This document shows, piece by piece, positions 13,543-17,929 of a stretch of 64,000 bases of DNA. Under the pieces are notes generated by a model. The model saw only the letters and a program-made list of their open reading frames with translations, had not been told where the DNA came from and did no database searches. A program made the position numbers and the translations under genes. This stretch comes from Roseomonas sp. Lineage in GTDB: Bacteria > Pseudomonadota > Alphaproteobacteria > Acetobacterales > Acetobacteraceae. Each line of letters begins with the position of its first letter. Position 1 is the stretch's first letter. The stretch lies in contig JADCFQ010000025.1 in the NCBI GenBank assembly GCA_020249435.1, forward strand, positions 1-64,000, given 5' to 3'.

Positions 13543-13851
13543 ATGTCGAAGAAATTTCTTACTGATGTGATCGCCAAGTCTGGCGACATGTCTGCCGTTG
13601 CGGCGGGCAAGCTTGCCGCCGATATCATTGACGCGATCAAGGCTGAAATCGTCAGCTCTGGCCGTTTCACCATTCCTGATTTCGGTGCTTTCGCCGTGCG
13701 CGAAACCCCGAAGCGTACCGGCTTGAACCCCAAGACCGGCGAAAAGGTGCAGATCAAGGCCGGTGCCACTGTCCGCTTCAAGGCGAGCCCGGCGCTGAAG
13801 GGCGCTGCTCTGGCCGGCGTGAAGAAGGGCAAGCGCAAGGCGAAGGCCTGA
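13543..13851 (+). CDS. hup: HU family DNA-binding protein
   Basis: This is a nucleoid-associated protein of 102 residues. It shows the HU fold from MSKKFLTDVIAKSG, the RFTIPDFGAFAVRETPKRTGLNPKTGEKVQI arm region (conserved Asn-Pro at the tip), and a Lys-rich tail ending GKRKAKA. HU homodimers bend and compact DNA. It has its own promoter region and is followed by a strong intrinsic terminator, so it is an independent, probably highly expressed unit. Confidence 0.95.
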   Translation: MSKKFLTDVIAKSGDMSAVAAGKLAADIIDAIKAEIVSSGRFTIPDFGAFAVRETPKRTGLNPKTGEKVQIKAGATVRFKASPALKGAALAGVKKGKRKAKA

Positions 13852-13920: not shown

Positions 13921-14061
13921 TCAATCCTCAATTGCCCCGCCGCGCAGCCGCTTGACCGCGCCGCGGCGTGTTTTCGATTCAAGGCGCCGCGCTTTTGAAC
14001 CAGCGGTTGGTTTGGTGGCCTTGCGCGGTGGCGGTGGCGGCAGCGCTGCCTTGCGCAACAG
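13921..14061 (-). pseudogene. arfB: 3' fragment of the original arfB
   Basis: The minus strand encodes 46 residues, LLRKAALPPPPPRKATKPTA and onward to RGGAIED, followed by TGA at 13921-13923. An in-frame TAG stands immediately upstream at 14062-14064. The text matches the C-terminal tail of ArfB (poly-Pro then a Lys/Arg-rich ribosome-binding tail) and aligns to residues from about LIKEAA to the end of the intact copy at 16152. It has no start codon. The matching N-terminal fragment lies 2.5 kb away at 16571-16684 in the same orientation. Confidence 0.88.
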
Positions 14062-14221
14062 CTAAAACGCGCGCATTGACCTACCTCGATGCGCGGAATT
14101 GCGGATCACTGACAAGCAAGCGAGCGTAAACCCAAAGGCGGTCCGATCTTTCGATGAGAGATTCCGCTACCACCGGCGCTGCCGCAGAGAGTTCAACAGC
14201 AACTCGGCTTCATCACGAATA

Positions 14222-15646
14222 TCATGGAGACCGCCTCGACGTTTCATGAGGAATCACACCGCAGCACGCCGATGAAACGGTCGGCCTCAAAGCTGGTTCG
14301 ACAGCACTGCTGGGGCCACAGTTGCCGCCGGTGATCGCCGACACTGATACAGGGCGCTGCGTTGAGCATACGCCTGTTTCGGGCAGAACGAGTTCCACGC
14401 GCCGTGCGGCAGCAGTGTCACCGGAAAGGTGGGCAGCAATGCTGCGCACCTGCTCGTGACCTGTTGCCAACAAAAAGGTCGGCGCTCGGCCGTATGCCTT
14501 CATGCCCGCAACATAGAAGCCCGGCTCATCCGGATGCCGAAGCTCGGCCTCGCCATGCGGACGCACCGTCCCGCAGGAGTGGAGGTTGGGATCGATTAGG
14601 GGTGCCAGCGCGGGTGTCGTCTGCACGGCGGGATCAAGTGTAAGACGCACCTCCCCAAGCCATGACAGATCAGGTCGGAAGCCGGTAGCGACGATGATGC
14701 GGTCAGTCAGCACCGTATCGGCGTTGCCGCCTCGGTCGCCATGGACCAGTAGGCGGTCACCTTCGCGCTCGATCCGATCCACCAGAAAGGGCGCCAGCTC
14801 CTGTACCTGTTGGGACTCGATCAGCGCCTTGGCCTTCGCGCCAAGCGCACCGCGCGCCGCCAGACCGTCTGCTTCGCCACCGCCGAAGTTTATATCGGCC
14901 AACGGGCGGCGGAATGCCCACATGATGCGTGTGCCCGGCGCTTGCCTAGCTAAGGTAACGAGATCGAGAATTGCGTTCATCGCGGAATGGCCGCCGCCGA
15001 GCACGAGCGTCGTTGCGCCCGCATGGTTGCTTCTACTGATGCCAAGCACGTCGGGGATGCCATAGGCGATTCGGTCGGCATTTGCGGTCTCACCGGGCGC
15101 CGGAAGGCCATGCGCACCGGCCGGGTTGGGGCTGGCCCATGTGCCAGAGCAATCGATCACCGCGCGCGCCTCGACCACCTGAATGGTGCCGTCAGGCGCG
15201 GCTAGATGCAGCACGAAGGGGGCGGCATCCCGCCCGCGACTGGCGGCGCGCTGTCCTTCACGCAAGCGATCGTGGTGACGACGAGAGACGCCAATCACCT
15301 TCGCATTATAGCGGAGGCCAGCACCCGCCTTGGCGAGCGCCGCAGCCAATGGTGCGAGGTAGACGGCAAAAAGATCAGCGCCTGTGGGAAAGGCGTCCGC
15401 GTCAGGGGCTTTCCACATCTCGGCTTCAAGCAGCCTGCGGGCCGCAGCATCCACGTTGAACCGCCATGGCGAGAACATGCGCACATGGCGCCATTCGCGG
15501 ACGGCGCTGCCGGGTTCGGACCCGGCTTCAAAGACGCACGGGCGCAGACCGCGTTCAATGAGGTGAGCGGCGGCGGCGAGGCCGACTGGGCCACCCCCGA
15601 TGATGGCGACCGGCAAGGAGCGATCAAGGCAGACGGCATCTGGCAT
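14222..15646 (-). CDS. FAD/NAD(P)-binding flavoprotein of arsenic-type operons
   Basis: This is a flavin-dependent oxidoreductase or monooxygenase of 474 residues. It has an FAD-binding IIGGGPVGLAAAAHL near the N-terminus, a second nucleotide site LVLGGGHSAMNAILDL mid-protein and the VATGFRPDLSWL motif towards the C-terminus. The tail after VELVLPETGVCS holds scattered Cys (GGNCGPSS and SSACCG), which recalls the Cys-rich tail of related proteins next to arsR genes. The ATG at 15646 lies 2 bp after the arsR stop, so the two form an operon. A role in arsenic or thiol-reactive metalloid handling is inferred from context. Confidence 0.78.
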   Translation of the reverse strand: MPDAVCLDRSLPVAIIGGGPVGLAAAAHLIERGLRPCVFEAGSEPGSAVREWRHVRMFSPWRFNVDAAARRLLEAEMWKAPDADAFPTGADLFAVYLAPLAAALAKAGAGLRYNAKVIGVSRRHHDRLREGQRAASRGRDAAPFVLHLAAPDGTIQVVEARAVIDCSGTWASPNPAGAHGLPAPGETANADRIAYGIPDVLGISRSNHAGATTLVLGGGHSAMNAILDLVTLARQAPGTRIMWAFRRPLADINFGGGEADGLAARGALGAKAKALIESQQVQELAPFLVDRIEREGDRLLVHGDRGGNADTVLTDRIIVATGFRPDLSWLGEVRLTLDPAVQTTPALAPLIDPNLHSCGTVRPHGEAELRHPDEPGFYVAGMKAYGRAPTFLLATGHEQVRSIAAHLSGDTAAARRVELVLPETGVCSTQRPVSVSAITGGNCGPSSAVEPALRPTVSSACCGVIPHETSRRSP

Positions 15647-15648
15647 CG

Positions 15649-16020
15649 TCAATTCTCCGGCGATTCAGGAAGTGGGCAACAGGGTGCCGCTGCGGGCGGC
15701 AGTGCGGCGTCGAGCAGGGGCGCGCAGACCTCTGGGCGCCCCTTGCAACAGTCTTGGAGCAAGAAGGCGATCAACCGCCTTAGCCCAGCGTAGTCGGCGG
15801 CATAGATCACCGACCGGCCGTCACGCCGCGAGGTGACAAATCCCGCGCGGGCAAGGATGGCGAGGTTAGTGGACATCGTGTTCTGTGGCGTCCCGAAGTG
15901 ACGCGCAATGTCCCCGGCAGGGACACCTTCGGCCCCAGCCTCAATCAGGAGGCGCAGCACCGCGAGGCGGGTCTCCTGCGAGAGAGCGCTGAAGCCTTCG
16001 GCTGCATGTATTATATCCAT
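15649..16020 (-). CDS. arsR: ArsR-family transcriptional repressor
   Basis: This is a winged-helix repressor of 123 residues. The recognition helix is GTPQNTMSTNLAILARAGF and the wing is VTSRRDGRSVIYAA. A C-terminal LLQDCCKGRPEVC cluster resembles the Cys-Cys...Cys As(III) site of AfArsR-type repressors, and another Cys pair lies in APCCPLP. The start is set at MDIIHAAE (16020), because upstream sequence in this frame shows no family similarity and includes the promoter. It probably represses itself and the flavoprotein gene, with release by arsenite or a similar metalloid (family knowledge). Confidence 0.85.
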   Translation of the reverse strand: MDIIHAAEGFSALSQETRLAVLRLLIEAGAEGVPAGDIARHFGTPQNTMSTNLAILARAGFVTSRRDGRSVIYAADYAGLRRLIAFLLQDCCKGRPEVCAPLLDAALPPAAAPCCPLPESPEN

Positions 16021-16033
16021 AATTCTGGATATA
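16012..16033. promoter_or_regulatory. ArsR operator palindrome overlapping the arsR start codon
   Basis: TATATCCA (16012-16019) and TGGATATA (16026-16033) form a perfect 8-bp inverted repeat with a 6-bp spacer. The arsR ATG (16020-16018 on the minus strand) lies inside it, and the putative -10 box overlaps the right arm. This fits direct occlusion of RNA polymerase by bound ArsR. Confidence 0.7.
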
Positions 16034-16055
16034 TTGATGTAAATGGTTCTGTCAA
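16028..16055 (-). promoter_or_regulatory. arsR promoter (TTGACA / TATATC)
   Basis: On the minus strand a perfect TTGACA (16055-16050) is followed after 16 bp by TATATC (16033-16028). Transcription would start about 7 bp downstream, at or next to the A of the arsR ATG at 16020, so the mRNA would be leaderless or nearly so. No ribosome-binding site is visible upstream of that ATG. Confidence 0.6.
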
Positions 16056-16151
16056 GGGCTGGTTCAGCGCGCAGGATATGGCACGGAAGGCCGATGAAGT
16101 GAGGTTGCCGCACCGACCGTCGGGGATGGTGGTAGCTAATGTCGCTGTCGC

Positions 16152-16574
16152 TCAATCCATATCGGGTCGTCCGCGCCCACGCTTGATGGTTGATCGAAGC
16201 GCTTTGCCCTGAAGCCTACGAACCTTCGAGGCAAGAGTTGGTCGCGTTTTCTTGCGAGGCGGGGGCGGAGGGCGCGCTGCCTCCTTGATCAATTCGACCA
16301 GGCGGGCCAGCGCATCCTCCCGGTTCCGATGCTGTGTCCGGTGCTGCTGAGCGGTGATGAGGATCACGCCTTCCCGCGTTGCCCGGTGACCTGCCAAGCG
16401 AAAAAGGCGGGCTTTCACCGCATCGGGTAGGTTCGGACTGTTTGCGGCATCGAACCGCAGTTGAACGGCCGTCTCCACCTTCTGGATGTTCTGCCCGCCC
16501 GCGCCACTCGACCGAAGAAAATCCTCGTGGAGTTCCGCCTCGTCAATGCTGATCGACTCCGTAACGCGGATCAT
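16152..16574 (-). CDS. arfB: ArfB-type alternative ribosome rescue factor (intact, divergent copy)
   Basis: This is a peptidyl-tRNA hydrolase that frees ribosomes stalled on truncated mRNA (140 residues). It has the catalytic GAGGQNIQKVETAVQLRFD (GGQ near residue 26), the central AGHRATREGVILITAQQHRT block, and the PPPPPRKKTRPT linker with a basic C-terminal tail. The ATG at 16574 overlaps the TGA of the truncated N-terminal arfB reading frame as ATGA. It is therefore translationally coupled to the original arfB start and probably uses the original promoter. It is clearly divergent from the flanking fragments (roughly half to two thirds identical by eye). Confidence 0.92.
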   Translation of the reverse strand: MIRVTESISIDEAELHEDFLRSSGAGGQNIQKVETAVQLRFDAANSPNLPDAVKARLFRLAGHRATREGVILITAQQHRTQHRNREDALARLVELIKEAARPPPPPRKKTRPTLASKVRRLQGKALRSTIKRGRGRPDMD

Positions 16575-16684
16575 GGACTTGGCTCGAACATGTTCACATT
16601 CTGCCCACCAGGGCCCGAGGCGCGCAAAAACGCCTCCTTAAGTTCACTCTCGGCAATGCTGATGGCGGGGGTGATGCGGATCAT
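16571..16684 (-). pseudogene. arfB: 5' fragment of the original arfB
   Basis: This frame encodes 37 residues. MIRITPAISIAESELKEAFL runs into ASGPGGQNVN, where ArfB identity stops, and six unrelated residues MFEPSP precede a TGA. The normal continuation after GGQNVN (K-V-E-x-A-V) is absent; homology breaks at about 16591/16592. The start at 16684 is the MIRIT methionine. Its stop overlaps the start codon of the intact divergent arfB, so this fragment now acts as a leader peptide for it. The rest of the original gene survives only as the 13921-14061 tail. Confidence 0.88.
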
Positions 16685-16771
16685 GCGGATTTCATAGAAC
16701 AACCAGCGCCCTCCTGTCTTGCCATGAAGGCCCGGGCGCAGGATGTTGGGGCCATCAAGGAACGGGAAACC

Positions 16772-17323
16772 ATGGACGAACATTCAATAGACAAGGCGCC
16801 CGACGCCGCCGCCGATTGGCCGGATCAGATCTATTCCCTGCTCAAGACGCATAACATCACGCAAGTGGCCCTGGTGCCGGATGCCGGGCATTCCCGGCTG
16901 ATCCGCCGCTGCCTTGCCGATAATGAAATGAAGGTGGTGACGCTGACCACCGAAGAAGAAGGCATCGCGCTTTTACAGGGCGCCTGGCTTGGCGGTGCGA
17001 AGGGCGTGCTGCTGATGCAATCCTCTGGCGTTGGCAATTGCATCAATATGCTCTCGCTCTCCATCATGCATCGCTGCCCGCTGCCCATGCTGGTGACGAT
17101 GCGCGGCGATTTCGGTGAGTTCAATCCGGCGCAGGTGCCTATGGGCAATGCGACGCAAACCGTATTGGAAGCGATGGGCACGCTGGTGCGCCGCGCCGAT
17201 ACGCCGGAAGATATCGCGCCCACGGTGAATGCCACCATTCGCCTCGCCTTCAATACCTTCCGCCCTACCGCAACCCTGATTGGCCAGCGCGTGCTCGGCG
17301 CCAAGACTTTCGGGAAGGACTGA
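16772..17323 (+). CDS. ThDP-dependent decarboxylase, alpha subunit (sulfopyruvate/phosphonopyruvate type)
   Basis: This is the PYR-domain subunit of a two-subunit thiamine diphosphate decarboxylase (183 residues). It has the cofactor-activating Glu in LTTEEEGIALLQGAWLGG and the family signature LLMQSSGVGNCINML. ComD-type sulfopyruvate decarboxylase and phosphonopyruvate decarboxylase share these. The start at 16772 follows AAGGAACGGG. The beta subunit starts 3 bp downstream. It is divergent from arfB. The oxoacid substrate is not determined; sulfopyruvate is one candidate. Confidence 0.83.
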   Translation: MDEHSIDKAPDAAADWPDQIYSLLKTHNITQVALVPDAGHSRLIRRCLADNEMKVVTLTTEEEGIALLQGAWLGGAKGVLLMQSSGVGNCINMLSLSIMHRCPLPMLVTMRGDFGEFNPAQVPMGNATQTVLEAMGTLVRRADTPEDIAPTVNATIRLAFNTFRPTATLIGQRVLGAKTFGKD

Positions 17324-17326
17324 AAA

Positions 17327-17929
17327 ATGCTCGCCGCTTCAGGAAAACTCGACCGTCGCGAATTGACCCGTGCGCTGCTTACGGATCGTGGCGAAATGCT
17401 GGTGATTGCCGGGCTTGGTGCGCCGGCCTGGGATATCACGGCCATTGGTGATTGCGCGGAAAACCTGCCGCTTTGGGGCGGCATGGGTGGTGCTGCCATG
17501 ATCGGGCTAGGTCTGGCCTTGGCGCAGCCCAAGCGCAAGGTGCTGGTGATTACCGGCGATGGCGAAATGCTGATGGGCATTGGCGCGTTGGCCACGATTG
17601 CGGTGCAAAAACCCGCCAATCTTTCCATTGTGGTGCAAGATAATGAACATTACGGCGAAACCGGCATGCAGGAAACCGCGACACGCCACGGCGTTGATCT
17701 GGTGATGATGGCGAAGGGTGCCGGCATTTCAAACACCATGTTCGTGACCAAGCCCGATGAAGTGCCCGCGCTGCATAAGGCGATCCATGCCGGCAAAGGC
17801 CCCTTCTTCGCGGTCGCGAAAATTGACGCCACCAGCAAGCCCTTGGTGCTGCCGCCGCGCGAAGGTGCGCTATTGCAAGCGCGCATGCGTGAAGCGGTGA
17901 TGGGGCCGGCCGCGCATCATCAATTGTGA
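17327..17929 (+). CDS. ThDP-dependent decarboxylase, beta subunit
   Basis: This is the ThDP pyrophosphate-binding subunit of 200 residues. The diphosphate/Mg motif begins GDGEMLMGIGALATI and ends in VVQDNEHYGETGMQET, the expected GDG to N spacing. N-terminal LWGGMGGAAMIGLGLALAQP is also typical. With the alpha subunit it would decarboxylate a 3-substituted pyruvate to an aldehyde. The next gene, a Bug receptor, is 54 bp downstream in the same orientation. Confidence 0.85.
   Translation: MLAASGKLDRRELTRALLTDRGEMLVIAGLGAPAWDITAIGDCAENLPLWGGMGGAAMIGLGLALAQPKRKVLVITGDGEMLMGIGALATIAVQKPANLSIVVQDNEHYGETGMQETATRHGVDLVMMAKGAGISNTMFVTKPDEVPALHKAIHAGKGPFFAVAKIDATSKPLVLPPREGALLQARMREAVMGPAAHHQL

Follow-up and report, generated by a model that had tools for sequence, protein, structure and literature searches.

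Why should the two ends of one ribosome-rescue gene, arfB, lie on either side of a second, complete arfB? The question is raised by a locus in the window, a stretch of 64,000 nucleotides (nt) from Roseomonas sp., where the order on the minus strand is the N-terminal fragment of a native arfB, a complete arfB, an arsR-type regulator gene, the gene for a flavin adenine dinucleotide (FAD) protein, and the C-terminal fragment of the native arfB. Comparison with relatives shows that a foreign block (the module) interrupts the native gene just after the codons for its catalytic GGQ loop, and that the middle of the native gene has been lost. With moderate confidence, we read the locus as an immobile insertion allele of arfB whose foreign copy has replaced the native one, which has spread by recombination, and which may have originated in a mobile element.

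Native fragments, occupied sites and empty sites

The N-terminal fragment (16584..16684, minus strand) holds codons 1 to about 32-34, through GGQNVN, while the C-terminal fragment (13921..14068, minus strand) runs from about codon 92 through the stop codon. Both match the ArfB model NF006718 (E 9.6e-11 at profile positions 3-35, and E 6.4e-11 at positions 99-136), and both match an nhmmer DNA profile made from 10 uninterrupted native arfB loci, the first as native nt 1-101 at window positions 16684-16584 (E 7.7e-29; alignment with the 10 loci also underlies its extent), the second as native nt 276-420 at 14068-13924 (E 1.3e-40). These matches bear out the sequence-only reading that an arfB was broken in two around an intact arfB, arsR and a flavoprotein gene, and they refine its details. 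The N-terminal fragment, said there to end exactly after GGQNVN, does pass through that motif, and its native homology may extend 2-3 codons further. The C-terminal fragment, given as 13921-14061, is indeed the C-terminal end of arfB and starts at 14068 (native nt 276). The missing native middle comes to about 174 nt, or 58 codons, rather than the roughly 70 codons estimated earlier.

No significant match to this missing middle was found in 14069..14221, the non-coding right end of the module, which is assigned to neither strand. (G-numbers denote the genomes compared; G000 is the window's genome, a draft that is 99.23% complete.) A native middle hidden between the flavoprotein gene and the C-terminal fragment was rejected as a candidate, the pairwise score being reached by 23-279 of 300 shuffles in seven loci. 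Only in G026 was it reached by 0 of 300, with the match at the right-hand end of that interval, and only in G026 does nhmmer find native sequence there, from nt 259.

The search for occupied and empty sites covered 59 relatives and the window's genome, including 35 genomes of the genus. The module lies between the same flanking genes in eight of the 35 (G000, G005, G014, G017, G024, G026, G033 and G034). Nine more (G002, G007, G012, G019, G022, G023, G025, G029 and G031) have an uninterrupted arfB between the HU gene and the thiamine diphosphate (ThDP) enzyme genes, at 10 loci (G012 has one on two contigs), just the neighborhood in which the sequence-only reading proposed to look. Another 16 have a single uninterrupted arfB and no HU match within 1.5 kb on either side, G004 and G010 among them with ThDP genes adjacent to arfB; no arfB was found in G008 and G027 (78 and 77% complete). 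It had been allowed that relatives with the same arrangement might carry the fragments as parts of separate functional genes. Relatives do share the arrangement, but their fragments are truncated arfB ends, the C-terminal one eroded to varying lengths.

A conserved foreign arfB

The complete arfB (16152..16574, minus strand; 140 residues, loop GAGGQNIQ) scores 187.3 bits against the NF006718 equivalog model (cut-off 100). Described earlier as divergent, it has the same orientation as the fragments and is divergent in sequence, being 58% identical to the N-terminal fragment over 36 residues. A whole-genome search locates arfB in only three places in the window's genome, the two fragments and this copy, which is the only full arfB found there. 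In an ArfB tree of 56 rows, with 22 native arfBs of the genus and 6 module copies (those of G017 and G034 left out), the module copies fall outside the clade of the 22 (split 100/99). The module arfB has an open frame, GGQ and a basic tail in all eight occupied genomes; a GGQ motif and a positively charged C-terminal tail are given as hallmarks of ArfB (PMC8012679; statements cited here and below refer to the accessible parts of the papers). Its ratio of nonsynonymous to synonymous substitution rates (dN/dS) is 0.091 over the eight genomes, against 0.110 for native arfB at empty sites; arsR has 0.185 and the flavoprotein gene 0.210 (seven of the eight genomes, G034 with its partial match left out). 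By these measures the foreign arfB is conserved under purifying selection, and it is the predicted rescue factor that takes the broken native gene's place. Together with the nine empty-site genomes, this upholds the proposal that the middle of arfB gave way to a foreign module, which brought an intact copy of the gene.

An alpha-type transfer-messenger RNA (tmRNA) occurs in all 12 genomes tested, including all eight occupied ones, so that arfB here is a second rescue path. The tmRNA gene of the window's genome (G000:C18 72752-73068) shares a contig with the arfB locus, at a distance of about 56 kb.

Spread of the allele between species

On a tree of rpoB plus rpoC (rpoBC) for 19 genomes, some forks of which are weak, occupied and empty genomes are interleaved, also at well supported forks (G033 with G019, G000 with G025, and G014 with G007 and G022), and the allele has therefore moved between species. 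Module distances (0.018-0.175) show no correspondence to rpoBC distances (0.044-0.079); G005 and G033, for example, are 0.018 apart in the module and 0.061 in rpoBC. The flanks jump likewise, the ThDP genes of G033 and G034 being 0.012 apart against 0.058 for rpoBC. N-terminal fragments of different genomes are close to different native alleles, and the differences to the nearest allele, of 93 nt, number 0 in G005, 1 in G034, 2 in G000, 4 in G033, 6 in G024, 7 in G014 and 9 in G026. The right junction is similar in G005 and G033, sisters on the module tree, in G014 and G034, sisters there at a support of only 0.73, and in G017 and G024, which are not sisters. Native sequence beside this last junction is nearest to G019 and G031 in G024, and nearest to G000 and G023 in G017. 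This pattern of junctions, alleles and distances is explained by recombination of the allele, the crossovers falling near the module, and it is likely that the allele passes between species by homologous recombination at the flanks (the HU gene, the ThDP genes and the leftover arfB ends). Repeated site-specific insertion is possible for the left side; a counterargument is that the occupied genomes share the loss of the native middle.

An independent insertion in another genus

Whether arfB is a recurrent landing site was a question that the sequence-only reading had posed. Among the matches listed for 397 family genomes, the sole other such case found is G163, from another genus of the Acetobacteraceae, with one full arfB and a second that is cut at residue 27-28. 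The insert is a 6.0-kb serine-recombinase element (locus L195 4138-10178), and the order runs from native arfB up to GCAGAACGTCAA through 72 bp, a complete arfB, an N6/N4 DNA methyltransferase gene (L195 4898-6538), the gene for a repetitive 299-residue protein without a Pfam or PADLOC match (L195 7005-7904) and the recombinase gene to GCAGAACGTCAA again and the rest of native arfB. This sequence is a 12-bp repeat present at both ends of the element. The recombinase, an intact protein of the large serine type (586 residues), is encoded at the right end facing inward, and the Resolvase, Recombinase and Zn-ribbon Pfam models all match it above cut-off. The genus has 6 genomes; in the empty-site comparison, made without G321, the genomes G217, G073, G292 and G259 are contiguous across the site, the flanks overlapping by 11-15 nt, and G073 carries an additional stretch of about 0.9 kb further downstream. 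The G+C content (GC) of the element is 0.617, and that of its flanks 0.70-0.71. G163 holds a clean insertion of a putative integrative element, a fresher case than that of the window's genus.

The G163 insert and the inserts of the window's genus have in common their place, a leading complete arfB and the orientation of that arfB. They differ in arfB lineage, in cargo and in the exact break, and the G163 insert has a recombinase and no target deletion. A sister relation of the two element arfBs was considered and is unsupported by the tree. The gene arfB has been struck at least twice in the family; recurrence is to that extent established, and insertion into arfB is rare in the samples searched. 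The surveys at E 1e-6 miss short eroded fragments (e.g. those of G005, G014 and G024), and the rarity holds mainly for fresh insertions. In the family survey, full rows cover 65 of the 103 genomes that have two or more matches among those listed. For the class (385 genomes, 129 with a match at 1e-6), a split arfB is found in the window's genome alone; in G444 two full copies lie on separate contigs. For the order (250 genomes, 194 of them matching at 1e-6), multiple matches occur, among those listed, in G000, G095, G313 and G387. The second match of G095, on a different contig, is short of a full copy and weak (38%), and G313, with two survey matches, has the full copy alone within the 38 kb examined. 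G387 was rejected as a split arfB: a full copy and a nearly identical one with a frameshift lie there about 8 kb from each other, with no break at GGQ. The two copies (L225 3887-4281 and 12190-12585) resemble a recent segmental duplication.

Recombinases related to that of G163 occur in 16 of the 397 family genomes at 1e-30 (at most 39% identical, apart from G163), in 5 of the 385 class genomes at 1e-50 (up to 38% identical), and, within the genus of G163, in 1 of 6 genomes, G163 itself. On mobile DNA they are matched in 20 plasmid and 18 phage records, all below 60%, and none was found in viral contigs. No arfB was found beside the other recombinase loci examined, where two weak matches had E 0.33 and 0.95. 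Relatives of the foreign arfB were found in 7 phage and 69 plasmid records, all below 60%, and none in viral contigs.

Origin of the inserted block

The course of events that we favor has the following steps. An integrative element carrying a replacement arfB would have entered native arfB directly behind the GGQ loop codons, and deletion would later have removed its recombinase, the attachment (att) site on its right and a stretch of the native gene. The foreign arfB is likely expressed from the native arfB promoter, and arsR and the flavoprotein gene likely from their own, with the allele traveling between species by homologous recombination in the flanks and leftover arfB ends. A recombinase-element origin is proposed because an arfB would not be expected in a random insert into arfB, and the family has two inserts with an arfB, at almost the same codons of the target. 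That the block first came as an arfB-targeting integrative element with a replacement arfB, and later decayed, is on this analysis a proposition with about even chances. A more specific version, which we offer tentatively, is that of a self-compensating element: its recombinase would target the GGQ codons of arfB, the best conserved DNA of this rescue gene; the leading foreign arfB, with GGQ codons unlike the target core, would preserve ribosome rescue in the host and shut the element out of its own arfB copy; and the window's genus would hold a domesticated allele passed on by ordinary recombination. Native cores read GQNVN, and module copies read GQNIQ in 6 of 8 genomes, GQNVQ in G024 and GQNTQ in G017. 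Target immunity of the element copy, by an altered loop that removes the att core, is a hypothesis only, because among the family arfBs listed that belong to neither element, 10 of 17 also have an NIQ or NVQ loop.

Several observations weigh against the reading of the locus as an insertion allele of possible element origin. The GC of the module is 0.63 and that of its flanks 0.61, hardly any difference. A recombinase search of the window and of 17 further loci from the genus gave no match below E 0.019 (seven weak matches are outside the module or present in empty sites too), and no recombinase remnant was found in the eight module-bearing loci, so that the lost integrase suggested by the sequence-only reading has only the parallel of G163, with its large serine recombinase, to speak for it. 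The window contains one exact att core, in the N-terminal fragment (16593), and no second core was found in the module or its right end within 2 mismatches. The left break is at native nt 96-101 in the genus and at about 92 in G163, 4-9 bp apart; the G163 element arfB clusters with the arfBs of the genus to which G163 belongs (support 85/95, short of a firm fork); and the cargo of the two inserts is unlike. The fragments have dN/dS values near the native ones (0.12 for the N-terminal and 0.20 for the C-terminal fragment, 0.11 and 0.255 for the same stretches of native arfB), which recombination with native alleles explains, and which selection on the fragments would explain too. Selection for replacement would also give the same pattern with any insertion route.

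The lack of a recombinase and of an att pair, and a target deletion where a clean insertion might be looked for, favor one-step illegitimate recombination, in which foreign arfB-arsR-flavoprotein DNA replaced about 58 codons without a recombinase and survived through its arfB. This explanation retains some weight because selection for replacement fits any insertion route. Against it, no arfB lies beside the flavoprotein gene at 74 loci outside the clade (of 80 kept; the fetched flanks are of up to 6 kb and often shorter), so that the arfB-arsR-flavoprotein block is no known chromosomal neighborhood, and elsewhere in the family another arfB is interrupted, no more than 10 bp from the same place, by a recombinase element that also has a leading arfB; we regard a one-step event as possible but rather unlikely. 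A homologous event, with arfB-bearing DNA recombining with native arfB (by a single crossover, or homologously on one side and illegitimately on the other), would account for the position of an arfB at one end of the module. In G017 the N-terminal fragment is absent and native upstream sequence joins the foreign arfB directly at the start codon (loci L036 / L053), with ATGATCCGC, common to native and foreign arfB, at the join, which suggests that recombination is possible between the starts of native and foreign arfB. A single crossover, though, would leave chimeric arfBs, and what is observed is an N-terminal fragment, a complete foreign arfB and a C-terminal fragment side by side, making such an origin very improbable.

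The fragments might instead be retained as functional short genes, one as a leader peptide for translational coupling, or the other as a C-terminal peptide. The frame of the N-terminal fragment (16571..16684, minus strand; 37 codons plus TGA) continues 6 codons beyond GGQNVN, and its TGA overlaps the ATG of the foreign arfB (ATGA); it is open, with its stop on that start codon, in all seven genomes that retain the fragment, and in G163 the stop of the N-terminal part lies 4 nt beyond the first base of the element's arfB start codon. The fragment's low dN/dS points the same way. As evidence of coupling this geometry was rejected, shuffled leaders reproducing it in 74-86% of cases for G000 and 32-38% for G163, which is not above chance. 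In addition, the GGQ glycines are mutated in 2 of the 7 N-terminal fragments (SPVGQ in G024 and GPSGQ in G026), G017 does without the fragment, and the C-terminal fragment is worn down to about 15-16 codons in G014 and G034. Retention for function is accordingly improbable. (Over codons 1-22 the differences of the G024 and G026 fragments from native alleles are almost all synonymous, an observation that does not separate selection, recombination and chance.) An artefact of assembly or binning would be conceivable in that the window's genome and its relatives are drafts, but the arrangement recurs in eight genomes between the same native flanks (in G017 without the N-terminal fragment), and its probability is negligible.

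Cargo and flanking genes

The arsR-type regulator gene (15649..16020, minus strand) matches NF033788 at 67.6 bits (cut-off 55). Its stop is overlapped by an open reading frame of 476 residues (14222..15652, minus strand) for an FAD/nicotinamide adenine dinucleotide (phosphate)-binding flavoprotein, which matches the Pfam models DAO and Pyr_redox_3 above cut-off and, at 37.6 bits, does not reach the cut-off of 425 of the ArsO flavin monooxygenase model NF040505. The nearest arsR-flavoprotein pairs of equal spacing are in Belnapia mucosa (flavoprotein 76% and arsR 71% identical) and Roseococcus pinisoli (70% and 72%). The likely promoter and operator of arsR, a function suggested by sequence, occupy 16013..16055 on the minus strand, with TTGACA at 16055-16050 and a palindrome, ATATCCA-N6-TGGATAT, at 16013-16032 overlapping the arsR start codon. 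TTGACA is kept in all eight occupied genomes, at equal distance from the arfB stop in seven of them, and the palindrome is variable in some; the palindrome behind the conserved TTGACA is likely the site of a predicted ArsR autoregulation.

The flanking genes also stand beside uninterrupted arfB in relatives. They are the HU gene (13543..13851, plus strand; Pfam PF00216) and the genes of a two-subunit ThDP decarboxylase-like enzyme (16724..17929, plus strand), whose products match PF02775 above cut-off and TIGR03845 at 122.1 bits, below its cut-off of 147.95.

Comparison with known systems

SXT/R391 elements sit in prfC, a peptide-release gene, and the integrases of the islands found in dusA are of the tyrosine type. 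These dusA-specific genomic islands and prophages integrate site-specifically, and island sequence is thought to keep the dusA product working (PMC4482086). Like the inserts described here, they lie inside a conserved protein gene that acts on RNA of the translation apparatus; they break the gene at its 5' end and fuse a new 5' end to it (PMC4482086), whereas here the break falls at the catalytic loop and the insert brings an entire additional gene. Serine-recombinase elements, as in Streptococcus rumA, disrupt genes dispensable to the host (PMC5704250). They resemble G163 in combining a serine recombinase with insertion in a translation-apparatus gene; no replacement copy is mentioned for them in that text (PMC5704250), and the window's module, for its part, has no recombinase. 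Many large serine recombinases target conserved coding sites, such as the prolyl isomerase gene (PMC10083194), and G163 is similar in its conserved site within coding sequence; the terms ArfB, release factor, peptidyl-tRNA and RF-1 do not occur in the accessible main text of that survey. CP4-57 and other prophages lie at ssrA, and excision of CP4-57 alters the ssrA end (PMC10107115). That is again a mobile element in a ribosome-rescue gene, unlike the present case in that no full second gene is described there as supplied (PMC10107115). In the literature searched, including the accessible parts of PMC4131195 and PMC4687380 (subscription papers were mostly outside its scope), no report of an element in arfB (yaeJ) was found.

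Known insertions in conserved genes restore the end of the gene or disrupt dispensable genes (PMC4482086, PMC5704250). In the two cases described here the break falls at the catalytic codons of the gene, and the insert brings a complete foreign substitute, which would be another way of using a near-universal target, and both inserts would exchange the host's ribosome-rescue factor for a foreign one in a single step. The window's genus lets occupied and empty sites be compared, and in G163 both the recombinase and the att sites are open to direct tests.

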